Shown here piece after piece: positions 22,592 to 48,600 of a stretch of DNA of 64,000 nucleotides. The notes beneath the pieces were generated by a model that was not told where the DNA came from, did not search any database, and was given only the letters and a program-made list of their open reading frames with translations. The position numbers were made by a program, and so were the translations under genes. The DNA is from an uncultured Clostridia bacterium (GTDB taxonomy: Bacteria; Bacillota; Clostridia; Oscillospirales; Oscillospiraceae). Positions within the stretch are counted from its first letter, which is position 1. The number at the start of each line of letters is the position of its first letter. Location of the stretch: assembly GCA_947170435.1 (NCBI GenBank), contig CAMVTO010000002.1:1-64000 (forward strand), written 5' to 3'.

Positions 22592-22894
22592 ATGAAAACC
22601 GACTATGTAAAAACCACCGTTCGACTTACCGGTACACAAGCGGACCGGCTGAAAAAGAGAGCGGCAAAAAGCGGCGTGTCCATGTCCGAGTATATCCGCA
22701 GCCTGCTGACGAAGAAGGCACTCGCGGTGGAGCCGCCCGACGAGCTTTGGGCGCTGCTGGATACGCTCTATAGCCTCCATGCCATGCTTCTGCGCGTCAA
22801 CAGGCCGGAGTTCACCGAAGCCGCGCACCGACTGGAGCAGAACATTGTAGACCTGCAAGCCGCATTTACCGCTCCTCGAAAGGCGGCGTCCTGA
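22592..22894 (+). CDS. MobC-like relaxosome / ribbon-helix-helix protein
   Basis: VRLTGTQADRLKKRAAKSGVSMSEYIRSLL; overlaps relaxase start. Confidence 0.85.
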   Translation: MKTDYVKTTVRLTGTQADRLKKRAAKSGVSMSEYIRSLLTKKALAVEPPDELWALLDTLYSLHAMLLRVNRPEFTEAAHRLEQNIVDLQAAFTAPRKAAS

Positions 22895-24246
22895 TGGCAA
22901 CCACGAGCCTGTGGCATATCGCCGGCAGTCTCAAGGACCTCGTGGACTATGTTGAGAACCCGGAAAAAACTATAGAGAAGTTTCCCGAGCTTGACGATCT
23001 CTGGAATGCCGCGCGATACGTCCAGAGACCGGAGGCCACGGCGCACGGGCAGTTCGTCACGGCGATCAACTGCCTGAAGGAGACCGCCATCGAGCAGATG
23101 ATCCTGACCAAGCAGCAGTATCACAAGGGCGACGGATATATCGCTTACCACGGGTATCAGAGCTTCAAGCCCGGAGAGGTCACGCCGGAGCAGTGCCATG
23201 AGATCGGCGTCCAGTTTGCCAAAGAGATGTGGGGCAATGATTTTCAGATCCTCGTCACCACACATCTTGACCGGGAGCACCTGCACAACCATTTCTGCTT
23301 TAATTCGGTCAGCTTTCGGGACGGACACAAGTACAACTACTCCAAGGGCGAGCAGGTTCGGCTGCGTGAAGTATCCGACCGCATCTGCCTGGAGCACGGT
23401 CTCAGCGTCATCAAAAATCCGCACAAGGCTCCGTCCCGAACCGTGTACTTCGACGAGCGGGACGGCAAGCCGACCCGATACAACGTTTACCGGGATGACC
23501 TCTGGGACGCCATCGACGGCAGCCGCAACGTGCGGATGGTGGAACGCTATCTGAACGCGCTCGGCTATATCACGGACTTTACGGGAGCACATTGGAAAAT
23601 GCGCCTTCCGCAGTATCGGCACTTCACCCGCCTGGATACGCTGGATGACCGGCTGACGCCTGAATTCATCCGGCAAAATTGCGGCTACCGAGCCCGATAC
23701 GGCAATGTACGCGCCGTGATTTCCTATCCGCCCGATGTGCCGGAAGAGTTGAGCCATGTCAAAGAGTATCAGCGGCGAACCTCGCACATTTATCGGCTGT
23801 ATCTTTACTGGTGCTATGAGCTGGGCATTCTTCCCAAAGGAACATCCTATCGACCCACCAGCCCGTTCATTAGGGAAGAACTGCGGAAGCTGGATATGTA
23901 TGACAGGGAGACCCGCTTCATGGCGCAAAACCACATCGAGACGCTGGACGAGTTGCAGGAGAAGATGACCGAAACCAAGAGCAGGATGGACGAGCTGATC
24001 GACCGGCGAACCCACATCACCTACGCCATGCGGCGCGCTTCGCCCGAACGGAAGAAACAGCTTCAGGACGAGAAAAAGGCGTTGACCGATCAGATCGCTC
24101 CGCTGCGGGAGCAGCTCCGCTTGATGCAGGACATTGAACAGCGCTCTCTGCACATTGACAAAACGCTTGATCGTGTGATCGAAAGCGAAGAAAAGGCGTA
24201 TCAAACGCCGACCAAATCACCCCAGGAAAGGAGTTGCGAACGATGA
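22894..24246 (+). CDS. Relaxase / mobilization nuclease (MobA, VirD2-like)
   Basis: YHGYQSFKPGEVTPEQCHEIGVQFAKEMWGNDFQILVTTHLDREHLHNHFCFNSVSF: histidine triad of the relaxase. Confidence 0.95.
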   Translation: MATTSLWHIAGSLKDLVDYVENPEKTIEKFPELDDLWNAARYVQRPEATAHGQFVTAINCLKETAIEQMILTKQQYHKGDGYIAYHGYQSFKPGEVTPEQCHEIGVQFAKEMWGNDFQILVTTHLDREHLHNHFCFNSVSFRDGHKYNYSKGEQVRLREVSDRICLEHGLSVIKNPHKAPSRTVYFDERDGKPTRYNVYRDDLWDAIDGSRNVRMVERYLNALGYITDFTGAHWKMRLPQYRHFTRLDTLDDRLTPEFIRQNCGYRARYGNVRAVISYPPDVPEELSHVKEYQRRTSHIYRLYLYWCYELGILPKGTSYRPTSPFIREELRKLDMYDRETRFMAQNHIETLDELQEKMTETKSRMDELIDRRTHITYAMRRASPERKKQLQDEKKALTDQIAPLREQLRLMQDIEQRSLHIDKTLDRVIESEEKAYQTPTKSPQERSCER

Positions 24247-24521
24247 AGAGCATGCAGGATTTTACTGTGTATTGCAATTACAACTACAAGAAGCGGGACC
24301 CTTATCCCGCAAGTGCGGCGAGCGGAAAGGCGGTTACGTCGTATGACGACCTTCCCGTGGCGCTGAACGCCAAACAGGTGGCCGCCGTGCTCGGCATCTC
24401 GCGCGCCGGAGCATACAACCTCATGCGCAGCGAGGGCTTCCCGACGCTGTTTATCGGAAAGCGGATGGTCGTGCCGAGAGACCGTCTGCTGGATTGGATG
24501 AACCGGCAGGTCAGCGCATAA
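24243..24521 (+). CDS. Helix-turn-helix / excisionase-like DNA-binding protein of E2
   Basis: LPVALNAKQVAAVLGISRAGAYNLMRSEGFPTLFIGKRMVVPRDRLLDWM. Confidence 0.88.
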   Translation: MKSMQDFTVYCNYNYKKRDPYPASAASGKAVTSYDDLPVALNAKQVAAVLGISRAGAYNLMRSEGFPTLFIGKRMVVPRDRLLDWMNRQVSA

Positions 24522-24694
24522 GGCAAGCCCGGAACGCAGAGGGTGCGCTTCCCCTCACGATGCGGGAAAGCGCGCCCTCATGCAAGCTCAAAAACATTCA
24601 AATAGTCTCTTGCTTTAATGTGTTGAAGTGATATAATCAGAGTGGAATCTGGATTGACAGGTGCAGATTCGACACTGAGGAAAGAGAGGAAAAA

Positions 24695-25864
24695 TTGGCT
24701 GCTAGAAAGACAGAACGAAAAGCAAACGGCACAGGAACCATCCGAAAACGCGCTGACGGCCGATGGGAAGGACGTTACACGGTCGGTTTCGATCCAAAGA
24801 CCGGAAAGCAGCGCCAGAAGTCGGTTTACGGCAGTACGCAGAAGGAAGTCCGCCAGAAGCTGAGCGCGGTTGCCTCGGAGATCGACGCGGGAACCTATGT
24901 GGAACCGCGAAAAGAAACGGTCGCGGAATGGCTTGACGTATGGCTTGAAACCTATGTCGCAGTCTCTGTGAAGCCGTACACCTATGATTCGTATATGCGG
25001 CACTGCAAAAACCACATCAAGCCGGCGCTCGGGCGAATCAAGCTCACGGAGCTGTCCTCCATTCAAATCCAACAGTTTTACAACAGTCTGCTGATGGAAA
25101 AGAAGTTGTCGCCCAAGACGGTCAAGAACATCAACGGCGTTCTGCACAGTGCGTTGGAGCAGGCAAGGAAGCTGCGGATGATCGCGCTGAACCCGACAGA
25201 GCTGTGCACCCTCCCGCGTGCTCCGCGCAAGAAGATCCAGCCGATGGAGCGAGAAGAGGTCGCGGAGTTCCTCAAGCGCATCGAGGGCAACCGCTATGAG
25301 CTGATCTATCGTGTGACGCTCTTTACGGGTATGCGCGAGGGCGAGGTGCTTGGACTGACCTGGGACTGCATCGACTATGAAAAGAACACGATTGCCATTA
25401 CGCAGCAGCTCCAGAAAACGAAGAAGGTCGGCGGCAAATATGCCCTCGTCCCCACGAAGAACAGCCGCAATCGTACCATTACCGTCGCTCCGAGCGTGAT
25501 GACGCTGCTCCGGGAGAGAAAGCGCCAGCAGCTGCAGGATCAGCTTATGGCGGGCGAAGCGTGGGATAACCCGTGGAACCTCGTGTTTACGCGCGAAGAC
25601 GGCAAGAATCTCTGCCACTTTACCGTTTACCGCTTTTTCAAGGACGTCGTCAGGGAAATGGGACTCGGCAATCAGCGTTTCCATGACCTTCGCCACGAAT
25701 TTGCGGTGGCGTCGCTCGAGAGCGGCGACGACATCAAGACGGTACAGGAGAACCTCGGACACGCGACCGCCAGCTTCACGCTCGACGTCTATGGCCATGT
25801 GTCGCAGCAAATGCGGAAGGAATCGGCGGCGCGGATGGAGGGCTTCATTCAAGCGGTTTCCTGA
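24695..25864 (+). CDS. Tyrosine site-specific integrase of E2 (TTG start)
   Basis: N-terminal arm-binding GTGTIRKRADGRWEGRYTVGFDPKTGKQ; catalytic TGMREGE...HDLRHEFA...LGHATASFTLDVYGH. Confidence 0.95.
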   Translation: MAARKTERKANGTGTIRKRADGRWEGRYTVGFDPKTGKQRQKSVYGSTQKEVRQKLSAVASEIDAGTYVEPRKETVAEWLDVWLETYVAVSVKPYTYDSYMRHCKNHIKPALGRIKLTELSSIQIQQFYNSLLMEKKLSPKTVKNINGVLHSALEQARKLRMIALNPTELCTLPRAPRKKIQPMEREEVAEFLKRIEGNRYELIYRVTLFTGMREGEVLGLTWDCIDYEKNTIAITQQLQKTKKVGGKYALVPTKNSRNRTITVAPSVMTLLRERKRQQLQDQLMAGEAWDNPWNLVFTREDGKNLCHFTVYRFFKDVVREMGLGNQRFHDLRHEFAVASLESGDDIKTVQENLGHATASFTLDVYGHVSQQMRKESAARMEGFIQAVS

Positions 25865-26755: not shown

Positions 26756-27592
26756 ATGACGATAACAACCGAACAACTGACCACCTATCGCGCCCACCTG
26801 CGCGCCGAGGAACGCGGCGCCGCGACCGTCGCGAAGTACCTGCACGACGCGACGGCGTTCGCCGCATGGCTGCATGGCGCGGAACTGACGAAAGAACGCG
26901 CCGCAGAGTGGAAGCATGAGCTGCTGCGACGCGGACAAGCCCCAGCCTCCGTCAACGCCGCGCTGGCGGCGCTCAACGGGCTGTTCCGCTTTCTCGGACG
27001 GGAGGACTGCCGCGTCAAGTTTTTGAAGGTGCAGCGGCGTGCGTTTCGGGACGAATCAAAAGAACTGACGCAGGGCGAATATAACGCGCTGGTCGAAACG
27101 GCGAGGGCAAGGGGCAAGACGCGGCTTGCGCTGCTCATTGAGACCATCGGCGGCACGGGCGTCCGCGTCAGCGAAGTCGCGTTTATCACGGTCGAGGCGG
27201 CGCAGCGCGGCCGCGCGGAAATCGCGCTCAAGGGCAAAATTCGGACGATACTCCTGCCCGCCAAGCTCCGCCGCAAGCTGCTCAAGTACGCCAAGGCGCA
27301 AGGCATCACAAGCGGCGCGATCTTCCGCACCGCCACCGGCAAGCCGCTCTCACGCCGCCAGATTTGGGGCGAGATGAAAGCCATCTGCAAAGCCGCGGGC
27401 GTCGAGCCGAGCAAGGTGTTCCCACACAACCTGCGACACCTGTTCGCGGTCGCGTTCTACAAGGTGAGCCGCGATCTCGTGAAGCTGGCGGACGTGCTGG
27501 GGCACAGCAGCATCGAAACCACCCGTATTTACCTGATGACGACAGAAAAAGAACACCAACGGCAGCTTGACCGGCTGCGGCTGGTGTCGTAG
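26756..27592 (+). CDS. Tyrosine recombinase (candidate promoter invertase, cassette 1)
   Basis: XerC/D-like: GGTGVRVSEV, HNLRHLFA, LGHSSIETTRIY; ends 5 bp before inverted repeat. Confidence 0.93.
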   Translation: MTITTEQLTTYRAHLRAEERGAATVAKYLHDATAFAAWLHGAELTKERAAEWKHELLRRGQAPASVNAALAALNGLFRFLGREDCRVKFLKVQRRAFRDESKELTQGEYNALVETARARGKTRLALLIETIGGTGVRVSEVAFITVEAAQRGRAEIALKGKIRTILLPAKLRRKLLKYAKAQGITSGAIFRTATGKPLSRRQIWGEMKAICKAAGVEPSKVFPHNLRHLFAVAFYKVSRDLVKLADVLGHSSIETTRIYLMTTEKEHQRQLDRLRLVS

Positions 27593-27597
27593 GAACG

Positions 27598-27853
27598 GAA
27601 TTCGTATTCCGATGATTGTTTCAGATGGTCACATAGAGACAATACTACCGATACATACTTTCTTATACCATATAATCCCGGTTGATGCAACATATTTTTT
27701 GAATTTGAGTACAAAAAACTGAGCCTCGCAGTTGGAATGCTGCTAAGGCTTGACTGAACACACCCTTTTGTTCCTGTCTCAGGAGCAAGAGGGCGCTTTT
27801 TTATGTTTTAAGGGGCTCCTCGGTGACCTGCGCTGTAATCGGAATACGAATTC
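27598..27853. promoter_or_regulatory. Candidate invertible promoter segment, cassette 1 (apparently OFF)
   Basis: gaattcgtattccgat 27598-27613 / atcggaatacgaattc 27838-27853 (16-bp IR); minus-strand promoter TTGCAT-17-TATAAG (27690-27662); plus-strand terminator ~27760-27806. Confidence 0.8.
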
Positions 27854-27875
27854 TGATTACAAGGGAGGCATGGCG

Positions 27876-28079
27876 ATGAACCTGCAATTCAAGCTTGCGA
27901 GCGCGGAGCGCATGGAGCGCTGCGTGCTGTGCGGCCGCATGACCGACGTGCCCGTCAGCCGTCCGGTGACGGAGCGGACGCATTACGTCGACGGCGCGGG
28001 AGAGCTCTGCCCCGCGTGCTTCGCGGAGGTCTACGGCGTGAGCGAGCTGCGGTGGATCACGGAGCCGGCGGCGCTATGA
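27876..28079 (+). CDS. Small zinc-ribbon-like protein
   Basis: CVLCGRM...CPACFAE Cys pairs; overlaps next gene. Confidence 0.6.
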   Translation: MNLQFKLASAERMERCVLCGRMTDVPVSRPVTERTHYVDGAGELCPACFAEVYGVSELRWITEPAAL

Positions 28080-28570
28080 GAACACCGCACAGCACCAAAC
28101 GCCTCGACCTCACCGGACAGCGCTTCGGCCTGCTGACGGTCGTCAGGCGCGTCGAGAGCATCGGCAATCGCACCGCGTGGCTGTGCCGCTGCGACTGCGG
28201 CAATGAGCGCGTGGTCAAGACCATCCACCTGCGCGAGGGCAAGGTGAAAAGCTGCGGCTGCGTGAAAGCCTTGCACAGTGAGAGCGCACTGGGCCTGCAC
28301 TACATCGACGGCACCTGCGTCGAGATGCTGCGGGCGAACACCAAGCGGAGCAACAACAAAAGCGGCGTGGTCGGCGTAATGTGGCGCGCAAGTTGCCACA
28401 AGTGGCAGGCAAGCATCATGTTCAAGGGCACGCGCCACAATCTCGGTGTGTACGACCTCTTTGACGACGCGGTCGCGGCGCGCCGGGAGGCAGAGGCGCT
28501 CTATTACGATTCGTTCCTCGCGGACTATGACGCACAGCAGGCCGCCGAAACGCAGGGAGCGCCGGCGTGA
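28076..28570 (+). CDS. AP2-domain-type DNA-binding protein with N-terminal zinc-ribbon module (cassette 1, copy 1)
   Basis: LDLTGQRFGLLTV...CRCDCGNE...KSCGC plus NNKSGVVGVMWRASCHKWQASIMFKGTRHNLGVYDLFDDAVAARREAE. Confidence 0.8.
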   Translation: MRTPHSTKRLDLTGQRFGLLTVVRRVESIGNRTAWLCRCDCGNERVVKTIHLREGKVKSCGCVKALHSESALGLHYIDGTCVEMLRANTKRSNNKSGVVGVMWRASCHKWQASIMFKGTRHNLGVYDLFDDAVAARREAEALYYDSFLADYDAQQAAETQGAPA

Positions 28571-29256
28571 TGAAACGGACATACACCACCAGGCGCCTCG
28601 ACCTGACCGGACAGCGATTCGGCAAGCTCACCGTCCTCTCCCGCGCCGAGAACATCGGGCGAGATACCGCGTGGCACTGCCGCTGCGACTGCGGAAACGA
28701 GCTCACCGTCCGCACCTGTTACCTCCGCAAGGGCGAGAAGCGCGACTGCGGCTGCGATACACCGGTTCCGCTGCTGGCGGGCACCCGCCAATACGACCTC
28801 ACAGGCCAACGCTTCGGAAAGCTGACGGCGCTAAAGCCCATAGGCGCGCCGGACGGCAAAAACTACCGCTGGCTGTGCCGTTGTGATTGCGGCAGTGAGG
28901 TGACGGCGCAAATCGGAAACCTGCGGAACGGCAAGACGACCAGCTGCGGCTGCGACCGGGTGCCGCTTGCCAAATATCTGCACTACGTCGACGGCACGAG
29001 CGTCGATCTGCTCCGCAGCCAGACGGTCCACTCCAACAACTCCAGCGGTGTGAGCGGTGTGTACTGGGTAAAACGGCAGCAGCGCTGGGCGGCTTCGATC
29101 GGCTTCAAGGGCGAGCGTTACCATCTCGGCTTGTTTGACCGCTTTGCCGACGCCGTCGCGGCGCGCAAGGAGGCGGAGCAGAAGTATTTCGGCGCGTTCC
29201 TTGCGGACTATGACGCCAAACAGGCTATGACCGAACCGGCGGGAGCCGGGTCGTGA
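28570..29256 (+). CDS. AP2-domain-type protein with duplicated N-terminal zinc-ribbon module (cassette 1, copy 2)
   Basis: Two copies of DLTGQRFGKLT...CRCDCG...CGC then SSGVSGVYWVKRQQRWAASIGFKGERYHLG. Confidence 0.8.
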   Translation: MKRTYTTRRLDLTGQRFGKLTVLSRAENIGRDTAWHCRCDCGNELTVRTCYLRKGEKRDCGCDTPVPLLAGTRQYDLTGQRFGKLTALKPIGAPDGKNYRWLCRCDCGSEVTAQIGNLRNGKTTSCGCDRVPLAKYLHYVDGTSVDLLRSQTVHSNNSSGVSGVYWVKRQQRWAASIGFKGERYHLGLFDRFADAVAARKEAEQKYFGAFLADYDAKQAMTEPAGAGS

Positions 29257-29274: not shown

Positions 29275-29440
29275 AAGGATGTGATACTCAGGCAAAAGCG
29301 TGGCAGGATTGCGGGGCGCACCCGCTTGTCGCCGGGTTTGGTTGCGCAGACCGGCGACGGCGGGAGGATGCGCCGGAGTTTCATCGGGGGACTACGTAGA
29401 CTGATGATGCACGCCGTTCGCGCGCGAGATACTTTATTGT
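29275..29440 (+). ncRNA. Conserved structured leader element of unknown class (cassette 1)
   Basis: Near-identical block in cassette 2 with a compensatory change in hairpin gtcgccgg-gtttggttgcgcaga-ccggcgac. Confidence 0.55.
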
Positions 29441-29442
29441 AC

Positions 29443-29524
29443 AACCGCAAAACCGTTGGGAAACCCGGTGACGCAAAGTCGTGCGGCTAAGTCGCTGAAA
29501 GGCGATACGCTAGGCAGACCGCCA
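29443..29524 (+). promoter_or_regulatory. c-di-GMP-I (GEMM)-like aptamer 1 of 3, cassette 1
   Basis: gcaaaaccgttgGGAAAcccggtgACGCAAAGtcgtgcggCTAAG...TACGctaggcagaccgcc. Confidence 0.6.
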
Positions 29525-29539
29525 GATATGGCATCTTCA

Positions 29540-29669: not shown

Positions 29670-29685
29670 ATATAATATCTGCTTT

Positions 29686-29764
29686 GGCACGGCGGTGGGA
29701 AACCCCGCTTCGCAAAGCCAGAGGCTACGGCGCAGACGCGCTACGCCCGTTCGGCCGCCGGGGA
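29686..29764 (+). promoter_or_regulatory. c-di-GMP-I (GEMM)-like aptamer 3 of 3, cassette 1
   Basis: ggcacggcggtgGGAAAccccgcttCGCAAAGCCagaggCTACg...TACGcccgttcggccgccgggg. Confidence 0.6.
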
Positions 29765-29916: not shown

Positions 29917-32900
29917 ATGAAAACTTTGAAAAAGAGTCTCGCGATGCTGCTGGCGCTGGTCATGAGCCTTGGCTGCATGAGCGTCGGCGTGTGGGCAACG
30001 GACGACGATACGCTAGATAAAGAGACTGTTGAGGCTGACAGCAGTGGTTACACAAAACTTTCCGAAGGTCTCTATCAAGATAATGAAAGTTATAGCTCCG
30101 CCCAAAACTTCTATATCACCAGCAAAGACGGACTGTTTTACTTTCAGAAAATTGTTAATGGAGATAAAGAAACCACGGAAACTGTCTTTGGAAATGTTAT
30201 AAATGCCTACCAAGGTAACATTTTCACGGGAAAAACAGTTCATTTGCTTACGGATATTGACCTAGAAAATATTTCTTGGACCCCAATCGGGTATGTTCAC
30301 GGACAGAACGATGAAAGCACTTATAACGAGGACAAAATGCTGTTTTATGGCAACTTTGATGGTCATAACCATACGATCTCTAACATAACTGTAGCGACTA
30401 GTTCGAATAATAATAAGGGCGAGTATGGATTCTTTGGAAGAATTGGCGCGCCTGGTGGTAAAAATCAGACCTTTAAAGATCTGACTTTGAACAACGTTAC
30501 AGTGAGTGGCGAGTCGTACGTCGGCGCATTTGTCGGAAACGGCCAGAGCAACCCGGTAACCTTTGATAACTGCCGAGTGACAGGAAGCATCAATCTCAGC
30601 GGTAGTTATACTGGCGCAATCTACGGTATTGGCAACGGGAACGTCAAGAATTGCTCAGTCTCCGGTGATACTGACAGCGAAATCTACAGCGAAATCTTCG
30701 GTTATAACTATGCCGGTGGACTTGTCGGAGCAGAGCGCAACGGAGGTCAGGATCTCGCCATCACCGGCAATAAAGTCAGTGGCGTTAAGATCACTTCCTC
30801 CCAATATGCGGGCGGTCTGGTCGGTGCTATGTCGAGTGGTGCGGCAGGTACGCTGACGATTGGCGGCAACGACGTTGCTGGCGACGTCGTGGTTTCCGGC
30901 AAATATTCTGATAAGCTTATCGTCGAATTCGACGATGCCGGCAAAGCTACCCTGAGCGAAGGTTGGTACTCTACGGTTATCAAATATCCTGTCGCGCAGA
31001 TCGGCAACGAGTATTATACCACCCTCGCGGAGGCAATCGCGGCGGTTCCGACTGACGGTACCGAGACCACCATCACGATGGTGGGGGATATCGACGAGGA
31101 GTTGACCGAAGATGTCGGCAGTACAGGTGCATACTGGAAGATTGCTGCTGGGCAGAATATTGTTCTTGATCTGAACGGACATACGATCAAGCTCAAAGAA
31201 GGTGTCTGTCAGCCAGATCCCAAAACGGCAAAGAGCTATGCGATGTTCGAGAACAAAGGTACTTTTACTGTGGATGATACAAGCGCTGCTGGTACGGGAA
31301 GCATTCTGTTCAACCACCCGTATTACAAGATGTATAACTCGTCCTTCACGGCAATAAAGTACAACATTGCTCGAAACGATATCTCAAACCACGGAACGCT
31401 TGTTTTGAACAACGGCTTAATTAAGCAGGAAGCTTTTGAAGTTGAGGGTTATACAGATGGTGCGGGTACTGCAATGTATACCGTTGATAACTATGTCGGC
31501 TCTAGCTTTACGATGAACGGCGGGCATCTGTACAATTACTTCTCTAACGCGGTTCGTGTATTCGACAATGGTCCCGCTGCGGGCAGTATTACATTCAACG
31601 GCGGCTTAGTCGAAGGTTACAATTCTGTTTGGCTGCAATATACCAACAATACCACTCTTACGATCAATGGTGGTACGTTTAAAACCACCGCGAAAAACTA
31701 TCCCGATTCCAATACGCAATTATATAGTTCGTCTAAATCTTCTACAAGTCTGAACGTTGTGATCACGGGAGGCACATTCTACGAGAGTGTCAGTTTTTAT
31801 GCGAAAAACATTGATCTAAGTGTGACAGGCGGTACCTTCAAGGAGTGGCTTGAAGCCTATGATTACAGCGGCAACGGCTTTAAGCACGCGCAAGTTAGCG
31901 GCGGCAATTTCATGGATGTCTGCTTACAATACCAGCAGGGTGATTCTTGGTATTGGAAGGATTCGATAACTGGCGGTCTTTTCAGCACTGCGCCGGAATC
32001 GACCTACGAAACGAGCAGTGGAACCAGCACTCGTGATTATCCGAACTGCATCGCCCCCGACCACGCCGCGGTGCAAGTGACCGAGGGCGACTACGAAGGC
32101 TGGTATCTCGTCGGTCCGATTCAGTACGCTTCCCGCGAGATCATCACCGTCGATGAGGACACCTACCTCGTGAAGTCGTACGTGGAAGACGATGCCCAGA
32201 ACGAGCTTGAGGTTGCGAGCACCTCCGTCTCCGTGGCGTCCATCACCGAGGAGAGCATTGCGGCTGAGGAAGTCAAGACCACCGAGACCGTGTCCCTCGC
32301 CAACGTGAAGACCAAGAACGTTGCCGAGACCGCCGCAGCGATGGCTGTTGCCGCCGGTGCGACGGATGCTACGGACATCAACGTCACCATCAAGCTGGAA
32401 AAGCAGGATGACACTGAGGCGCAGAGCGATAACTTGGTGGAGACCTTCGGCGGCGCGCAGGAGGTCTTCGAGGTTCACCCCGTGGCGACCTACACGGCAA
32501 CCAAGACGGTTGGCGATGAGGTGCAGACGATCGCGACCGAGACGTTCACCATTGCCAACGATGACCTCGAGGGCAGCTTCACCTTCAACCTGTATCTGGA
32601 CAGCACGAAGTACAGCGGTCTTGAGGCTGGCAATCTCGTCACCGTCACCCACTATAAGGATGACAACACCACCGAAACTTGGAACAAGAAGGTGCAGCAG
32701 GACGAGGATGGGAACCTCTACGTCGAACTGACGCTCAGCAGCTTCTCCCACGTCGCGGTCAAGGCGAACAGTGATCCCACCGCGACCGTCGACTACACGG
32801 TCAAGATCGCGGACGCCACCTCCGGCACGGCGGTCATCTACCCGGGCGATTCCGTCACCATGAACGTCACCGTTTCCGGCGACGACTTCTACGGCGGCGA

Positions 32901-34125
32901 CTTCACCATCGAGTATGACAAGACCGCGTTCGATCTGGGCGAAGTCAGCCTGCCCGCAGGCATTGAGGTGCAGGCATCCGTCACGGATGTTGACACGACT
33001 GATGATACCAAGTATCAGCTCAACTACAACCTCGTCAACGGCGGTGCGCGTCTTGCCGACGGCTCCAAGATTCTCTCTCTCACCTTCACGGCGAAGAGCA
33101 ATCTGACCGAGACCAAGGAGTATGACTTCAAGGTTGTCAGCGCGAGCGTCAACTACAACAACGAGGAAAACGCGGATGATGCCGAGATCATCTCCAACGA
33201 CAAGGTCAAGGTCAACGCGACGCAGTACACCGTGAAGTTTGACGGCGAGTCCCACGATTGGGAGTATTCGGTCTATCAGGGCAAGGGCGTGGACACGATC
33301 CCGACCGACGTTAAGACCGGCTACACCTTCAAGGGCTGGGCGCTGACGGACACCGCGACCACCGCGCTGACGAACGAGGAAATCCGCAACGCTGCCGTGA
33401 CCGCGGACGTCATCTATTACCCCGTCTTTGAGGCGGAGCAGTATGATGTAACGCTGTCCGGCGCGACCGGCGACGCCAAGGCGACCTTCGGTCAGGACTA
33501 CACCGCGACCATCAGCGACTATGACGCGAACAACTATGACTACACCGTGACCTACAAGTCCGGCACCGACGCGAGCAAGACGCTTGAATTGACCGAGGAT
33601 AGCTTCGATGCGGAGACCGGAAAGTTCATCATCCCCGCGGCGGATATCACCGGAGCGCTGACCGTCACGGTCGAGAAGACCCTCAAGGGCTTCGAGGTCG
33701 AGCTGCACGCCGACTACGTCACCGGCTACACGCTGGTGCTGGTCAAGGCTGCCGAGGGCAACAACAGCAACCCGACCTACACCTATGACGACGGCGCGAT
33801 GTTCTTCGTGAATGAACTGAACAAGGCTGATAACTCGAAGGCTTACGGCGCATACGCCATCCTCGTCGAGGGCGCGATCACCGAGAGCGCGGCGCGTGCC
33901 AAGGTTGGCATCACCACCGCGACGGCCACTGAGCTGGACATCCAGACGGATGTCAACGCGACCGGTCTCATTGACTCCTCCGACCTGCAGGCGGCGTTCT
34001 CCGGCTACAAGGTTCAGCTGACGCTCCCGACGCAGATGGCGATCTATCTGCGCGCGGACGTCAACGGCGACTACAAGCTGGATACTGCCGACGTCGGTCT
34101 GGTCAACAACGCGAGAGCACAGTAA
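29917..34125 (+). CDS. Large secreted surface protein with beta-helix-like N-terminal region, cohesin-like domain, InlB-type repeat and C-terminal dockerin-like segment
   Basis: Signal peptide MKTLKKSLAMLLALVMSLGCMSVGVWA; TVKIADATSGTAVIYPGDSVTMNVTVSGDDFYGGDFTIEYD (cohesin-like); C-term DVNATGLIDSSDLQAA...LRADVNGDYKLDTADVGLV (dockerin-like pair). Confidence 0.85.
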   Translation: MKTLKKSLAMLLALVMSLGCMSVGVWATDDDTLDKETVEADSSGYTKLSEGLYQDNESYSSAQNFYITSKDGLFYFQKIVNGDKETTETVFGNVINAYQGNIFTGKTVHLLTDIDLENISWTPIGYVHGQNDESTYNEDKMLFYGNFDGHNHTISNITVATSSNNNKGEYGFFGRIGAPGGKNQTFKDLTLNNVTVSGESYVGAFVGNGQSNPVTFDNCRVTGSINLSGSYTGAIYGIGNGNVKNCSVSGDTDSEIYSEIFGYNYAGGLVGAERNGGQDLAITGNKVSGVKITSSQYAGGLVGAMSSGAAGTLTIGGNDVAGDVVVSGKYSDKLIVEFDDAGKATLSEGWYSTVIKYPVAQIGNEYYTTLAEAIAAVPTDGTETTITMVGDIDEELTEDVGSTGAYWKIAAGQNIVLDLNGHTIKLKEGVCQPDPKTAKSYAMFENKGTFTVDDTSAAGTGSILFNHPYYKMYNSSFTAIKYNIARNDISNHGTLVLNNGLIKQEAFEVEGYTDGAGTAMYTVDNYVGSSFTMNGGHLYNYFSNAVRVFDNGPAAGSITFNGGLVEGYNSVWLQYTNNTTLTINGGTFKTTAKNYPDSNTQLYSSSKSSTSLNVVITGGTFYESVSFYAKNIDLSVTGGTFKEWLEAYDYSGNGFKHAQVSGGNFMDVCLQYQQGDSWYWKDSITGGLFSTAPESTYETSSGTSTRDYPNCIAPDHAAVQVTEGDYEGWYLVGPIQYASREIITVDEDTYLVKSYVEDDAQNELEVASTSVSVASITEESIAAEEVKTTETVSLANVKTKNVAETAAAMAVAAGATDATDINVTIKLEKQDDTEAQSDNLVETFGGAQEVFEVHPVATYTATKTVGDEVQTIATETFTIANDDLEGSFTFNLYLDSTKYSGLEAGNLVTVTHYKDDNTTETWNKKVQQDEDGNLYVELTLSSFSHVAVKANSDPTATVDYTVKIADATSGTAVIYPGDSVTMNVTVSGDDFYGGDFTIEYDKTAFDLGEVSLPAGIEVQASVTDVDTTDDTKYQLNYNLVNGGARLADGSKILSLTFTAKSNLTETKEYDFKVVSASVNYNNEENADDAEIISNDKVKVNATQYTVKFDGESHDWEYSVYQGKGVDTIPTDVKTGYTFKGWALTDTATTALTNEEIRNAAVTADVIYYPVFEAEQYDVTLSGATGDAKATFGQDYTATISDYDANNYDYTVTYKSGTDASKTLELTEDSFDAETGKFIIPAADITGALTVTVEKTLKGFEVELHADYVTGYTLVLVKAAEGNNSNPTYTYDDGAMFFVNELNKADNSKAYGAYAILVEGAITESAARAKVGITTATATELDIQTDVNATGLIDSSDLQAAFSGYKVQLTLPTQMAIYLRADVNGDYKLDTADVGLVNNARAQ

Positions 34126-34241: not shown

Positions 34242-36542
34242 ATGAAAACAATTAAAAAATGTGTATCGCTTGCTCTGCCTCTGGCGCTGTTGGTCTCCCT
34301 GTGCGCGGGGTTTTCCGTGCCGGCGCTCGCCGCAAGCGACATCGCGCTGACCTATGACCTGAGCGCTGGAGGCGACCATGTCGTCTCCGTCGAAAACCCG
34401 GGCGACACCGTCGCTGTGACCTTTGCCATGCGGCGTACCGACGCCACCGAGAACTACTCGCTCTTCTCCATGCAGAACGAGATCGAGTACGACATGAGCT
34501 TCTTCGAGTTTGTCAGCGCCGCGGCGGTGCACAGCGCCAATTATAACGGCATCACGACACGGCCGACAATCCTGCATCAGACGCGCACCACCGGTCAGAG
34601 CATCGTCAAGACGACGATCATGACGGCGAACGACGTCTATCAGGCGGAGGAGACGTTCTGCACCGTGACGCTGCGTGTGCGGACAGACGCCGGATTGCAA
34701 ACAGGCGACAGCGGCTGGGTCCGCTCCAGCGAAGCCAAGGCAAACGAGCGTGACGTGGACGCCTGCGCCGTCACCGCGCAGGACCTGACCGTGTTCCTCG
34801 GCGCAATTCCCACAACGAGCTATCAGGTCAGCTTTGACGCCAACGGCGGCACATGGAGCACCGCCGCCGACGATCCGAGCGGAACCTATGCCGCCAACGC
34901 GTCCATCACCCTTCCCACGCCCGTGCGCGAGGGCTACGTCTTCGACGGCTGGTACGTCGGCACGACAGCGGTGGACGGCACGGCATATACGGTGACCGCG
35001 GACGCCACGCTGACCGCGCACTGGCGCGGCAGCTACACCGTTACGTATGTACTGGCCGGTGGAAACAATCTTTCCGGCGGCAACACCGTGGGCGCCAACG
35101 AGGGCGACATGATCACGCTGCCGAAGCCGGTTCGCGTCGGTTATGTGTTCAACGGTTGGTCTGACGGCACAGCGACATATGTCGCCGGTGCGAGCTATAC
35201 CGTGAAAGGCAATGCAACGCTGACCGCCACATGGACTGCATGCGCGCACCCCGAAGCGAGCCGTCAGGTGACCGGAAGCCGCACTGCTTATCTGCACAGC
35301 GGCCTATCCGTCCATGACGTGCAGGTGAGCACTGACTATCGCTGCGGCGACTGCGGCGCGGTGCTAGACAGCGTGACCGCGACGACCGCTTCCGGCGTGG
35401 CGTGTACAGGGACACACATAGGCGAAAACTGGCTCAGCAACGCCACCCAGCACTGGCATCACTGCGATGTGGAGAACGCCGATGTTGATATTGCCGACCA
35501 CGTTTACGACAACGACGCCGATACGACCTGCAACGTCTGCGGCTATACCCGCACGGTCGAAACCGGCGGCGGAACCGGAGGCGCAGGCGGCGGTGGCGGC
35601 GGCACAGGCGGAGGCGGTGGCGCCGGCGGCGGAAGCATCGTGAATCCCGGTGGAGGTACCACCACCATCGTGGATAACGAGGTCCCGTTGGCGGACGTGG
35701 ACAGCATCATCGTCACCAGCCTCGTCGATCCCACCACGGGCGCCAGCGTCAGCGGCGAGCGCGACGAGAACGGCCACGTGGTCGTCACCGTAAAGGACGC
35801 CGGCGGCAACGTGCTCGACACCGTCCCCGGCGGCGTGCGGGTCTCCTTCACCATCCGCGAGGGCGAGGTCGCGATCCTGCTGGACAAGGACGGCAACGAG
35901 ATCGATCTGCTGGAGAAGTCCATCGTCGAGGACCAGACCGCCTATGTGCTCGTGGACGGAAGCTGCACCATCGACATCAAGTACAACGCCAAGCCGTTCG
36001 ACGACGTGATGCCCTACGACTGGTTCAACAGCGCGGTCGTGTTCGCATCCAGCCACGAGCTGTTCCAAGGTGTCGCCGAGGGCGTGTTCGCGCCGAATAT
36101 GCCCATGACCCGCGGCATGCTGGTCACTGTGCTCTGGCGCCTGGAGAACAAGCCCGAGGACTTTGCGACGAATCAGTTCCCCGACGTGGCGGACGGCACA
36201 TGGTATACCGAAGCGGTGGGATGGGCGGCAAAGAACGGGCTTGTCAAGGGCTATGATAACGGAACATTTATGCCGGACCGCAACATCAGCCGTCAGGAGA
36301 TGGCGGCGATCCTGCACCGCTACATGAGCTATCTGGGCTACGATATGTCCGCACAGGACAACCTGTCGACCTTCGCAGATGGCGACAGCGTCGGCGCATG
36401 GGCTCTGCCGAGCGTGCAATGGGCTGTCGGCACCGGTATTATCACCGGCAAGGACGGCAGTCGCATCGACCCGCTCGGGAACGCTACCCGCGCGGAGGTT
36501 GCAACCATGTTTATGCGCATCGTGACCGAGATGGTCATGTAA
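34242..36542 (+). CDS. Secreted SLH-anchored surface protein with cohesin-like N-terminal domain and InlB-type repeats
   Basis: Signal peptide; DTVAVTFAMRRTD...SMQNEIEYDMSFFEFVSA...EETFCTVTLRVRTDA; Gly-rich linker; three C-terminal SLH repeats. Confidence 0.88.
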   Translation: MKTIKKCVSLALPLALLVSLCAGFSVPALAASDIALTYDLSAGGDHVVSVENPGDTVAVTFAMRRTDATENYSLFSMQNEIEYDMSFFEFVSAAAVHSANYNGITTRPTILHQTRTTGQSIVKTTIMTANDVYQAEETFCTVTLRVRTDAGLQTGDSGWVRSSEAKANERDVDACAVTAQDLTVFLGAIPTTSYQVSFDANGGTWSTAADDPSGTYAANASITLPTPVREGYVFDGWYVGTTAVDGTAYTVTADATLTAHWRGSYTVTYVLAGGNNLSGGNTVGANEGDMITLPKPVRVGYVFNGWSDGTATYVAGASYTVKGNATLTATWTACAHPEASRQVTGSRTAYLHSGLSVHDVQVSTDYRCGDCGAVLDSVTATTASGVACTGTHIGENWLSNATQHWHHCDVENADVDIADHVYDNDADTTCNVCGYTRTVETGGGTGGAGGGGGGTGGGGGAGGGSIVNPGGGTTTIVDNEVPLADVDSIIVTSLVDPTTGASVSGERDENGHVVVTVKDAGGNVLDTVPGGVRVSFTIREGEVAILLDKDGNEIDLLEKSIVEDQTAYVLVDGSCTIDIKYNAKPFDDVMPYDWFNSAVVFASSHELFQGVAEGVFAPNMPMTRGMLVTVLWRLENKPEDFATNQFPDVADGTWYTEAVGWAAKNGLVKGYDNGTFMPDRNISRQEMAAILHRYMSYLGYDMSAQDNLSTFADGDSVGAWALPSVQWAVGTGIITGKDGSRIDPLGNATRAEVATMFMRIVTEMVM

Positions 36543-37667: not shown

Positions 37668-37953
37668 GCGTTGCTTCTCCTCTCCGAACCGCAAACGCTT
37701 CGCTGGTTTGCGCTTCGGTAGGGGAACGGCGAAGAGAACGCATCAGTTCTCCCTGCGGCGTTTGTACTGACCATGTTCAAACCTCAATCAGAGACAGACG
37801 ACGCCTCGTTGCACCGAATTCCTCTGTTACAAAGGCTTCTCCGTCTCTGAGCTGCGCCGATTCCGCGGAAATCAAACGGAAACGGCGGCGGATGCCAACG
37901 GGTGGACTATGCCCATTCGCCTGAACGACTATCATCAATTTGGAGGTTCATTC

Positions 37954-38868
37954 ATGTCTACATACAACATCTATCTCGCCCTCGTCGCCCAGCTGGACAA
38001 GTTGGCGCGGCACAACCGGCAAGGGAGCTTTCAAACGAAACGGCGCTACTACGAGGCGATGCAGCGTTTTTGTCGCTACCTCGCCGAGGAATATCACCTG
38101 CAAAAGCTCTCGAACATCAGCGGCAAGCACTTCGCCGCCTACGCAGAGTATCTGCAGGAAAGCGGCAAGTCGGCGAGCACCATCAAGACCGATCTCGCGG
38201 CGATCCGATTCTTCCACGACAAGATGGAGCACGCCAAATATCGCCTGCCTGACAACGACGCCCTCGGCGTGGAGCTGGAGCGCCGGCGCTTCGGCGGCGT
38301 GGATCGCACATGGAGCGCGGTCGAGTTCAACCGCATGATCGGCAAGGCGGTGGAGGCGGGGCGTGACGATATTGCCTGCGCGCTGTATCTCGGACGCTTC
38401 GCCGGACTGCGTATCCACGAGGTCATGCGGATCGACACCGCCATTGCAGAGCAGGCGCTGCGCGAGGGCGCCATCACCATCAAGGGCAAGGGTGGAAAAA
38501 TCCGTACCGTCCCCATTGAGGATGAGCGCGTCCGCGTTGCCCTTGAGACCATGCTTAAACGCACCGAGCGCGGACACAAGCTGTTTGTGCCGGACGGCGC
38601 GCCAACCGACCGCGCCATCAACGGCGTGCAGTTGTTCATTCTCAAGCACCGAGACGCCGTTGCCGACGAGGGCCGCGAGGCAAACCTGACCTTCCATGGG
38701 CTGCGCCACAGCTATGCCGCGGACAAGCACCGTACGCTGACTGAAAAGGGCGTGAGTGCCCTCGACGCGCATTTCACCGTGTCGCGTCTGCTTGGCCACG
38801 AACGTCCCGATGTGACGAACATCTATCTTGCATCGGTCAAGAAAAAGGAGGCGCACGATGGAGAATAA
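37954..38868 (+). CDS. Tyrosine recombinase (XerC/D-like)
   Basis: FAGLRIHEVMRID...TFHGLRHSYA...LLGHERPDVTNIYL; RBS ttggagg before ATG 37954. Confidence 0.92.
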   Translation: MSTYNIYLALVAQLDKLARHNRQGSFQTKRRYYEAMQRFCRYLAEEYHLQKLSNISGKHFAAYAEYLQESGKSASTIKTDLAAIRFFHDKMEHAKYRLPDNDALGVELERRRFGGVDRTWSAVEFNRMIGKAVEAGRDDIACALYLGRFAGLRIHEVMRIDTAIAEQALREGAITIKGKGGKIRTVPIEDERVRVALETMLKRTERGHKLFVPDGAPTDRAINGVQLFILKHRDAVADEGREANLTFHGLRHSYAADKHRTLTEKGVSALDAHFTVSRLLGHERPDVTNIYLASVKKKEAHDGE

Positions 38869-39194: not shown

Positions 39195-40430
39195 ATGCCG
39201 CGCGGCAATAATAATACGAAGAATACAAAAGGCGCTTCCGGTGCCGGAACCATCCGGAAGAAGACCGTGGAGCGCAACGGAAAAGAATACACCTATTGGG
39301 AAGCTCGGTTCACCACCGGCTTCGATCCCGGCACGGGCAAGCAGATTCAGAAGTCCGTCACGGGCAAGACGCAGAAGGAAGTCGCGGAAAAGCTGCGTCA
39401 GATCACAAATGAGATTGACACAGGGACCTATATCGAACCGAGCAAGATGAAGCTGGGCGAGTGGCTGGATATTTGGGCGGAGAACTACCTGGGCGACGTG
39501 AAACCGTACACGGTGGCGTCCTACAATGGCGTGATTCGGAATCACATTAAGCCCGCGCTCGGCAATCTGCCGCTCGAAGAGATTCCGCCGCACGTCATCC
39601 AGATGTTCTACAATTCGCTGACGAAAGAGTCCAAAGGCAAAAAGCCGCTCTGCGCCAAAACGGTCAAGAACGTTCACGGCGTTCTTCATCGGGCGCTCCA
39701 GCAGGCGGTGCAGAACGGTTACATTCGCAGCAATCCGACCGACGCCTGCAAGCTGCCCCGCATCGTCAAAAAGGAGTTCTATCCGCTGGATAAGACGCAG
39801 ATGAGGCGGTTTTTGGATGCTGTTGCCGGTCATCGCTATGAAATCCTATATACGGTGACGCTCTTTACGGGGATGCGCGAGGGCGAGGCCATTGGCCTTA
39901 CTTGGGACTGCGTAGACTTTGAGCACGGCAAGCTGACTGTCAACAAGCAGCTTCAGCGAGAGAAGAAGACCGGTGCAAAGTACGTTTTCTCGACAGTGAA
40001 GAACGGCAAGACGCGCGTGATCGTGCCGGCTCCGTGGGTGATGCAGCTCCTTAAAAAACAGAAAGCGCAGCAGGCGGAGTGGCGGCTGCGCGCAGGAAGC
40101 GCGTGGCAACAGGGGAGCTTTGCCAATCTTGTTTTCACAGACGAACTGGGCCACTTTCTCTGGCTCCACAACATCTATCGTGACTTCAAGGAGATCGTGG
40201 CCTCCATCGGGCTCCCGCAGGTGCGCTTCCACGATTTGCGCCACAGCTATGCGATTGCCTCAATCCAAGCAGGCGACGACATCAAGACCGTCCAGAGCAA
40301 CCTTGGACACGCGACAGCGGCTTTCACGCTTGATGTTTACGGACACGTCACCGACCAGATGAAGGAAGCGAGCGCCGAGCGCATGGAGAGCTTTATCGGC
40401 GAGGTCCTTGCGCAGCAAAAAAGCTCATAA
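39195..40430 (+). CDS. Tyrosine site-specific integrase of E1
   Basis: GAGTIRKKTVERNGKEYTYWEARFTTG arm-binding domain; TGMREGE, HDLRHSYA, LGHATAAFTLDVYGH. Confidence 0.96.
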   Translation: MPRGNNNTKNTKGASGAGTIRKKTVERNGKEYTYWEARFTTGFDPGTGKQIQKSVTGKTQKEVAEKLRQITNEIDTGTYIEPSKMKLGEWLDIWAENYLGDVKPYTVASYNGVIRNHIKPALGNLPLEEIPPHVIQMFYNSLTKESKGKKPLCAKTVKNVHGVLHRALQQAVQNGYIRSNPTDACKLPRIVKKEFYPLDKTQMRRFLDAVAGHRYEILYTVTLFTGMREGEAIGLTWDCVDFEHGKLTVNKQLQREKKTGAKYVFSTVKNGKTRVIVPAPWVMQLLKKQKAQQAEWRLRAGSAWQQGSFANLVFTDELGHFLWLHNIYRDFKEIVASIGLPQVRFHDLRHSYAIASIQAGDDIKTVQSNLGHATAAFTLDVYGHVTDQMKEASAERMESFIGEVLAQQKSS

Positions 40431-40549
40431 GGGAAAACATAAGGGAAAACTTTTTGGGCGATTTTGAAAATCGAACTATTTTGGGTGATATTCTGGCAAC
40501 AAAAAGGAAAATCGCTTGAAACCATAATGATTTCAAGCGATTCCTCTGG

Positions 40550-40638
40550 CGCAGTGGGAGGGATTCGAACCCTCGGGCCGCTTTTGGCGACCACACGATT
40601 TCCAGTCGTGCTCGTTATGACCACTTCGATACCACTGC
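40550..40638 (-). tRNA. tRNA-Ser (anticodon GGA)
   Basis: GCAGTGGTATCGAAGTGGTCATAACGAGCACGACTGGAAATCGTGTGGTCGCCAAAAGCGGCCCGAGGGTTCGAATCCCTCCCACTGCG; acceptor, anticodon, variable arm and T-loop all pair. Confidence 0.95.
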
Positions 40639-46582: not shown

Positions 46583-47419
46583 ATGACGATAACAAAAGAA
46601 GACCTGACCGCGTATCGCGCCCACTTGCGGTCCGAAGAACGCAGCGCCGCGACCGTCGCGAAGTACCTGCACGATGTAGCCGCATTTGCGCTATGGCTGA
46701 ACGATACGCCGCTGACCAAGGAAGCTGCCGCGGACTGGAAGCAAGAGCTATTGCGCCGCGGACAAGCTCCTGCGACTGTCAACGCCGCTTTGGCGGCGCT
46801 CAACGGGCTGTTCCGGTTTCTCGGACGCGATGACTGTCGCGTGCGGTTCCTCAAGGTCCAGAGGCGCGCATTCCGGGACGAATCCAAAGAGCTGTCACAG
46901 GGCGAATACACCGCGCTCGTCAATACCGCAAGGGCGCAAGGCAAAGCACGCCTCGCGCTGCTCATCGAGACCATCGGCGGCACGGGCATCCGCGTCAGCG
47001 AGGTCGCGTATATCACGGTCGAGGCGGCACAGAGAGGGCGCGCGGAAATCGCACTCAAGGGCAAAATCCGCACGATTCTCCTGCCCGCGAAGCTCTGCCG
47101 AAAGCTGCTCAAGTACGCCAAGACGCAGGGTATCACAAGCGGCGCCATCTTCCGCACCGCAACCGGCAAGCCGCTCTCGCGGCGCCAGATTTGGGGCGAG
47201 ATGAAGGCCATCTGCAAGGCGGCGGGTGTGGAACCGAGCAAGGTATTCCCGCACAACCTGCGACACCTGTTCGCGGTGGCGTTTTATCGCGTGAGCCGTG
47301 ACATTGTGAAGCTCGCGGACGTACTGGGGCACAGCTCCATTGAAACGACGCGCATCTACCTCATGACGACAGAAAAAGAACACCAACGGCAGCTTGACCG
47401 GCTGCGATTGGTGTCGTAG
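46583..47419 (+). CDS. Tyrosine recombinase (candidate promoter invertase, cassette 2; ~90% identical by eye to 26756-27592)
   Basis: Gap-free 278-aa match to cassette 1 recombinase; HNLRHLFA, LGHSSIETTRIY. Confidence 0.93.
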   Translation: MTITKEDLTAYRAHLRSEERSAATVAKYLHDVAAFALWLNDTPLTKEAAADWKQELLRRGQAPATVNAALAALNGLFRFLGRDDCRVRFLKVQRRAFRDESKELSQGEYTALVNTARAQGKARLALLIETIGGTGIRVSEVAYITVEAAQRGRAEIALKGKIRTILLPAKLCRKLLKYAKTQGITSGAIFRTATGKPLSRRQIWGEMKAICKAAGVEPSKVFPHNLRHLFAVAFYRVSRDIVKLADVLGHSSIETTRIYLMTTEKEHQRQLDRLRLVS

Positions 47420-47420
47420 G

Positions 47421-47682
47421 ACGGAATACACATTCCGTTATATGCTCCAAGCGGAAAAATAGTGACATAGACACTATTACATAATCTTTATACCACATAA
47501 TCCCCAGCTATGCAATACTTTTTTATCAATATGAGCGCAAAAATCTAAGCCCCGCGGCTTAAAAAACCGCCAGGCTTACTTCAGTGCACCCTTTTGTTCC
47601 CATTCGCGGAACAAGAGGGTGCTTTTTTGTGTTTTGAGGGGGCTTTGGGTGCTTCGCCCTGTCAACGGAATGTGTATTCCGT
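47421..47682. promoter_or_regulatory. Candidate invertible promoter segment, cassette 2 (apparently OFF)
   Basis: Perfect 18-bp IR acggaatacacattccgt 47421-47438 / acggaatgtgtattccgt 47665-47682; minus-strand promoter TTGCAT-17-TATAAA (47515-47487); plus-strand terminator gcacccttttgttcc...ggaacaagagggtgctttttt 47586-47628. Confidence 0.85.
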
Positions 47683-47701: not shown

Positions 47702-48193
47702 ATGGCTCACACCACCGCCCGCCTTGACCTGACCGGACAGCGCTTCGGAAAGCTCACCGTCGTCGCGCCCGCCGAGAATATCGGACGGCGCACCGCTTGG
47801 CTGTGCCGGTGCGACTGCGGCGGCGAGCGCATCGTCAAGACCGTACACCTCCGCGAGGGCAAGGTCACGAGCTGCGGCTGTGCCAAAGAAAAGCACAGCG
47901 CAAGCGCACTGGGCCTGCACTATGTCGACGGCACCTGCGTCGAGATGCTGCGCGCGAACACCAAGCGCCGCAATAACAAGAGCGGCGTGGTCGGCGTGGT
48001 GTGGAGACCGGCGCGCCGCAGATGGCAGGCGAGCATCATGTTCAAGGGCACGCGCCACAACCTCGGCATGTACGCCCAATTCGACGACGCGGCAAAGGCG
48101 CGGCGGGAGGCCGAAGCGCTGTACTACGGCTCGTTTCTCGCGGACTTCGACGCGAAGCGGGCTATGACCGAACCGGCGGGAGCCGGGTCGTAA
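47702..48193 (+). CDS. AP2-domain-type zinc-ribbon protein (cassette 2)
   Basis: LDLTGQRFGKLTV...CRCDCGGE...SCGC; NNKSGVVGVVWRPARRRWQASIMFKGTRHNLGMY; tail MTEPAGAGS as in cassette 1 copy 2. Confidence 0.82.
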   Translation: MAHTTARLDLTGQRFGKLTVVAPAENIGRRTAWLCRCDCGGERIVKTVHLREGKVTSCGCAKEKHSASALGLHYVDGTCVEMLRANTKRRNNKSGVVGVVWRPARRRWQASIMFKGTRHNLGMYAQFDDAAKARREAEALYYGSFLADFDAKRAMTEPAGAGS

Positions 48194-48212: not shown

Positions 48213-48380
48213 AGGATGTGATACTCAGGCAAAAGCGTGGCAGTTCAGCGGGGCGCACCCGCTTGTCGTCGGGTTTGGTTGCGCAGACCGACGACGGCGG
48301 GAGAATGTGCCGGAGCTTCATCGGGGGGACTACGTAGACCGATAAGGTACGCCGTTCGCGCGCGAGACAACAAAATGTAC
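48213..48380 (+). ncRNA. Conserved structured leader element of unknown class (cassette 2)
   Basis: Homologous to 29275-29440; hairpin gtcgtcgg-gtttggttgcgcaga-ccgacgac 48265-48295. Confidence 0.55.
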
Positions 48381-48458
48381 ACCGCAAAACCGGGGAAATC
48401 CGGCGACGCAAAGGCAGGAGGCTAAGGGGCGCAAGCTCTATGCTCGTCCGCCCGCCAG
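48381..48458 (+). promoter_or_regulatory. c-di-GMP-I (GEMM)-like aptamer 1 of 3, cassette 2
   Basis: gcaaaaccggGGAAAtccggcgACGCAAAGgcaggaggCTAAGgggcgcaagctcTATGctcgtccgcccgcc. Confidence 0.65.
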
Positions 48459-48474
48459 ATATGGCGTCTTCACT

Positions 48475-48600
48475 CAGCAAAGCCGTCGAAAGGCGGCGAC
48501 GCAAAGCCGCGTGTTGGGAAACCGCACGCTTAGGAGGCTAAGACCTTATGCCTATTACTGTGCAAGGGAGGCAAAGGTTATGCTCGTCCGGCTGCCGAAG
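48475..48600 (+). promoter_or_regulatory. c-di-GMP-I (GEMM)-like aptamer 2 of 3, cassette 2
   Basis: agcaaagccgtcGAAAggcggcgACGCAAAGCC...CTAAG...TATGctcgtccggctgccgaag. Confidence 0.7.

Follow-up and report, generated by a model that had tools for sequence, protein, structure and literature searches.

The segment lying between the recombinase gene at 26756–27592 and the genes downstream from it raises the question as to whether this locus is a phase-variation switch, in which the recombinase flips a promoter segment controlling an operon encoding AP2-like and surface proteins. The data obtained on the window (i.e., the whole 64,000-nucleotide stretch of DNA analyzed) and on related loci make this reading highly probable, the switch being now in the OFF position. 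The recombinase gene, located on the plus strand, encodes a tyrosine recombinase of 278 amino acids (Phage_integrase, 1.3e-23), which is the proposed invertase of the locus, called here cassette A. The gene is intact and the R, K, HxxR, H, Y catalytic pattern was found to be kept in the alignment. The exact 16-nt inverted repeats reported in the earlier note, GAATTCGTATTCCGAT at 27598–27613 and its reverse complement at 27838–27853, are present with 224 nt between them, and the left one does begin 5 nt past the stop of the recombinase ORF. The window contains two perfect 16-nt inverted pairs with a spacing of 100–400 nt, each of which is at most 20 nt from a recombinase stop, whereas 30 simulations with a first-order Markov model of the window yielded none. 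For the recombinase, a site of 18 bp is to be preferred to the 16-bp repeat: the left site, ACGGAAT-TCGT-ATTCCGA, is located at 27595–27612 (plus strand) and the right one, which is inverted and also has the centre TCGT, at 27839–27856 (minus strand), with 226 bp between the two. Short inverted repeats therefore flank an intergenic segment with an intact tyrosine recombinase gene nearby, as in known invertons. Pairs of CGGAAT-type sites are confined, in the source genome (2.8 Mb, 81 contigs), to cassette A and its two close paralogues (called B and C); elsewhere in this genome, there are a few single matches.

The segment contains the minus-strand promoter TTGCAT-17-TATAAG described previously, at 27662–27690 (ATGCAA at 27685–27690 and CTTATA at 27662–27667), which is aimed at the recombinase gene. 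Because its second hexamer ends in G, this promoter falls just under the cut-off of the generic tool; the element is conserved in all six of the six close homologues. Judging from the sequence, this internal promoter would face the operon in one of the two orientations of the segment. The plus-strand terminator was also confirmed, with a 14-bp stem at 27763–27793 and a T run, the whole element occupying 27763–27802 on the recombinase strand (terminator scan and homologue fold). The consensus fold of five homologues places a first hairpin, possibly an insulator, upstream of the promoter at 27720–27752 (plus strand). The close homologues have two hairpins, the second of which is the terminator, and at five base pairs both sides have changed while the pairing has been kept. 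These compensatory changes lend modest support to the hairpins, the covariation term being small and slightly unfavourable.

Recombinases related to that of cassette A (E at most 1e-60) were identified in 112 of the 401 genomes of the family. Most of the relatives bearing a name are metagenome assemblies from the ruminant gut with the label Oscillospiraceae, and RGIG6629 from sheep rumen is the nearest of them. Of the three close cassettes in the source genome, the window contains A and B, while C is located on contig C44; this genome also has three more distant cassettes, with a recombinase identity of about 46%. Cassettes A, B, and C each consist of a recombinase gene, a repeat, the segment, a second repeat, one or more AP2-like genes, a c-di-GMP-I riboswitch, and a gene encoding a large secreted protein. 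In cassette B, the recombinase gene (46583–47419, plus strand; 90% identity with A) is followed by the left repeat with centre ACAC (47421–47439, plus strand), a promoter TTGCAT-17-TATAAA in the OFF orientation (47487–47515, minus strand), a terminator (47586–47629, plus strand), and the right repeat (47664–47682, minus strand), and then on the plus strand by the genes encoding an AP2/HNH-type protein of 163 amino acids (47702–48193) and a large secreted protein of 911 amino acids (48962–51697). Its repeats have the same spacing as those of cassette A, i.e., 224 nt. This layout, with similar spacing and the same promoter position, is common to the paralogues and the cassettes of other genera.

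The position of the promoter is near-constant: a score of at least 9.5 was obtained there in 87% of the callable segments (the ON copies being flipped) vs. 7% of dinucleotide shuffles, which were scored on both strands, while the orientation calls used the same promoter score, somewhat favouring the observed set. On the recombinase strand, i.e., opposite the promoter, a hairpin resembling a terminator occurs in 38% of the segments vs. 2% of the shuffles. The strong plus-strand terminator in the segment, the stem of which is kept in the homologues, the frequency of such hairpins, and the promoter-like sites upstream of the recombinase gene would also suit a switch of the cwpV type, in which the segment inverts but the terminator is the main control, the OFF orientation blocking read-through from the recombinase promoter and inversion removing the block. 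The promoter is commoner than the terminator, however, and if cassette B was flipped, a weaker terminator-like hairpin (47563–47544) would still meet the recombinase transcript; we therefore regard control by the terminator as unlikely, and retain the invertible promoter as the main control.

Alignment of the site pairs gave the consensus ACRRAAT-NNNN-ATTYYGT, i.e., two 7-bp arms surrounding four variable bases. In the 65 pairs, no mismatches between partner sites were observed at the six central positions, as against 78 at the other twelve. When sites were re-found by their arms alone, so that the identity of the centre was not selected for (59 cassettes), the centre was identical in both sites as an inverted repeat in 57 cassettes and as a direct repeat in none, whereas permutation of the partners gave a mean of 2.7 matches and a maximum of 10. 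There exist 41 types of centre among the 65 cassettes, none of which is self-complementary. Since tyrosine recombinases need identity in the strand-exchange region, the plain reading is that the 4-nt centre would be this region, drifting freely while both copies agree. Six different centres occur in genome G366 and five in G164. Whether distinct centres within a genome prove selection for separate addresses was also considered, and this argument was rejected: chance alone would give mostly different centres, and centres are shared by cassettes B and C (ACAC), by L080 and L082, and by L102 and L103.

Orientation was judged between homologous segments in the assembled sequences. Among the 65 cassettes with paired sites, 45 are OFF, 10 are ON, and 10 are unclear, which leaves 55 callable. 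Four pairs of segments show opposite orientations: L102/L103 in G381, a single-contig genome (100% identity over 212 bp), L080/L082 in G284 (97%), L051/L052 in G007, the sheep-rumen species (82%), and L010/L012 in the source genome (81%). L051 and L052 were too close for the automatic promoter call, and aligned cleanly once L052 had been flipped. Since near-identical segments are opposed within single genomes, the cassette family inverts. Both orientations are thus found among homologous loci, cassette A itself being OFF. Contig ends were also considered as proof of mixed orientations and were discarded, five starts being located at most 30 nt from the recombinase 3' end vs. one at the 5' end, which is not a significant difference (p = 0.22); breaks in the assemblies could also arise at recombinase genes present in several copies.

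The claim that the segment is an invertible promoter now aimed away from the AP2-like/surface operon is therefore supported by the conservation of promoter, terminator, and sites in paralogues and relatives, and by the flipped state of the homologous segment in other cassettes. The family might nevertheless have inverted only in the past, the copy in cassette A being now locked OFF. All three close cassettes of the source genome (A, B, and C) are OFF, the nearest ON copy being L052 in a related species, and the outer arm bases of the two cassette A sites are starting to differ. These observations would suit a fossil, but the recombinase is undamaged and has kept its catalytic pattern, the centres of the two sites are identical, and equally diverged cassettes occur in both orientations; a locked copy is accordingly quite improbable. 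Cassette A is most likely a real invertible-promoter cassette which is active and in the OFF orientation, and we infer from these sequence comparisons that this copy still flips.

The surroundings of cassette A include a relaxase-like gene and two Tn916-type integrases, one beside a tRNA gene (22894–25864 and 39195–40638); these stretches on either side of the cassette are probable integrated mobile elements. A further recombinase of a different type is encoded at 37909–38868, the start of which is overlapped by an imperfect inverted repeat (37380–37400/37931–37951). With integrase and relaxase genes nearby, and AP2-like proteins resembling mobile homing-endonuclease proteins, the repeats might have been taken not for a switch but for an attachment site or the two ends of a small mobile element. 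That the sites are inverted and not direct, that their spacing is near-constant, that flipped copies exist, and that a conserved promoter, but no gene, is present in the segment makes this explanation extremely improbable, and the segment is better accounted for by an invertible promoter. The viral contigs searched contained no relatives of the cassette A recombinase.

Directly past the right repeat, a ribosome-binding sequence precedes a small ORF encoding 67 amino acids with two CxxC motifs (27876–28079; no Pfam match above the cut-off), which has an ATGA overlap with the next gene. The latter encodes a first AP2/HNH-type protein of 164 amino acids (28076–28570; PHROG 374, 7.9e-34; no Pfam match), and the following gene a second one of 228 amino acids (28570–29256; PHROG 374, 2.1e-52). 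The ribosome-binding sequence and the ATGA junctions fit what would be expected of a single operon. The naming of these genes as AP2 stood only in part: the strong PHROG matches are with HNH/AP2-type homing-endonuclease-like proteins, whereas the Pfam AP2 model (PF00847) gave scores of 19.9 bits (the second protein) and 17.6 bits, below the gathering score of 33.3. They are best called predicted AP2/HNH-type DNA-binding proteins. Further along the plus strand are a gene encoding a large secreted protein with a signal-peptide-like start (29917–34125; weak Listeria-Bacteroides repeat match), which is the proposed target of the switch, and one encoding an SLH-domain surface protein (34242–36542; SLH, 6.4e-31). 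The first gene downstream from the switch in other genera is often that of a DUF4379 treble-clef (zinc-finger) protein (L087, 1.6e-77), that of a second tyrosine recombinase, or at once that of a large secreted protein; AP2-type genes located past the switch were identified in these genera only in L040, L054, and L077. The second tyrosine recombinase is the first gene behind the promoter in L042, L047, L074, L083–L085, L091, L102, L103, L105, L107, L110, L112, and L115; in these relatives, a further recombinase may be under the control of the switch.

Between the AP2-like genes and the surface gene of cassette A, in the leader of the latter, two tandem c-di-GMP-I aptamers (RF01051) were identified on the plus strand at 29436–29526 (55.4 bits) and 29676–29762 (40.2 bits). 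Cassette B also carries tandem aptamers on the plus strand at 48373–48599 (48373–48459 and 48466–48599; 62.3 and 36.9 bits), and all four aptamers in the window, with scores of 36.9–62.3 bits, exceed the gathering cut-off of 35 bits. On the plus strand, the consensus scan detected nothing resembling a promoter from the right repeat up to the surface gene, and the riboswitch leader is therefore likely to derive from the switched transcript. An inverton followed by tandem riboswitches suggests two controls in series. The conserved G directly 5' of the first helix, which we take to be the ligand-contact G20, is replaced by C in the upstream aptamer of each of the four A-type cassettes, namely A, B, C, and L052 (29436–29526 and 48373–48459 in the window, L009 3964–4052, and L052 6987–7075), while the second aptamers have G or A at this position. 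If this is the ligand-contact position, the upstream aptamers may respond to a ligand other than c-di-GMP; they resemble a riboswitch leader, the ligand of which is uncertain. L052 and L077 share the link between inverton and riboswitch. A strict link was rejected, since the leaders in G001, G011, one G007 locus, and contig C49 of the source genome had no paired site in the upstream stretch examined.

According to the mechanism proposed, the recombinase would bind the two 18-bp sites (7-bp arms and 4-nt centre) and invert the 226 bp between them. In the OFF orientation, the sigma-70-type promoter would aim back at the recombinase gene and the terminator on the opposite strand would halt read-through of the recombinase transcript, the operon having no promoter in the region scanned. 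In the ON orientation, transcription from the promoter would pass through the right site, the small ORF, and the pair of AP2/HNH-type genes before continuing in the direction of the surface gene. The surface protein would then require both this orientation and the right second-messenger state, in view of the two c-di-GMP-I aptamers in the leader. That this particular recombinase inverts cassette A, that transcription extends as far as the surface gene, and that a response to the ligand occurs are steps we infer. It is possible, though doubtful, that the cassettes make up a self-contained switch family in which the 4-nt centre between near-constant 7-bp arms serves each cassette as an address against cross-recombination, the transcript being also gated in the source genus by a cyclic-dinucleotide riboswitch.

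Clostridial invertons with adjacent tyrosine invertases are an already published class. Inverton group 139, the segments of which were found from read orientation, is statistically linked to tyrosine invertase group 35; 32 of the 33 group 139 segments belong to Clostridia, and almost all of the segments have a tyrosine recombinase in their vicinity (PMC11892184). These groups resemble cassette A in having invertible segments with an adjoining tyrosine recombinase in Clostridia, whereas the variable 4-nt centre, the AP2/HNH genes, and the riboswitch do not figure in the parts of the source considered here, the comparison being one of descriptions (PMC11892184). The RecV switches of Clostridioides difficile, cwpV and flagellar, likewise involve a tyrosine recombinase, short inverted repeats round about 200 bp, and a surface protein; however, recV is not beside cwpV and serves several switches, whereas here each segment has its own adjoining recombinase, and the cwpV promoter is outside the invertible segment while that of cassette A is inside (PMC2784873; PMC5903667). 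The invertible promoter of C. difficile pdcB is also tied to c-di-GMP biology, but it governs a c-di-GMP phosphodiesterase, whereas here the switched transcript would itself carry c-di-GMP-I aptamers (PMC9286219). In the fim system of E. coli, an adjoining recombinase flips the promoter of a surface structure, but fim is one switch, unlike the several cassettes per genome found here, each with its own recombinase and centre (as described in PMC2784873). In a limited literature search, no description was found of a variable centre in constant arms across a cassette family or of a riboswitch leader behind a flipped promoter, nor any papers joining invertons with AP2 domains. The combination of features in cassette A looks like a novel variation on the published class of switches.

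Phase variation of this kind would mean that part of the gut population displays the surface protein while the rest does not. The cassette is compact and present in several copies per genome across a poorly studied gut family, and since recombinase, sites, promoter, and target occur together in it, switches can be paired with their enzymes without guesswork. The constant arms and variable 4-nt centre provide a direct test of how a recombinase family separates many switches, and riboswitches behind a flipped promoter would link random switching and a sensed signal in one transcript.

Three odd copies were also observed. L118 (1440–1950, contig C49) is a fourth riboswitch leader, preceded by what is apparently left of the 3' part of an AP2-like gene; no invertible segment is present upstream, and this cassette seems to have lost its switch. 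L057 (5001–5776) is an orphan cassette in which a 3' remnant of the recombinase gene (95% identical) is present; its paired sites have the centre CCAT, and a riboswitch is located 251 nt past the right site, no AP2-type gene being found between the two. In L013 (minus strand of contig C18, 8500–8930), the 3' fragment of a recombinase gene adjoins a flagellin-like sequence which is unrelated to it; after this fragment comes a complete invertible segment, the promoter of which faces downstream (ON).
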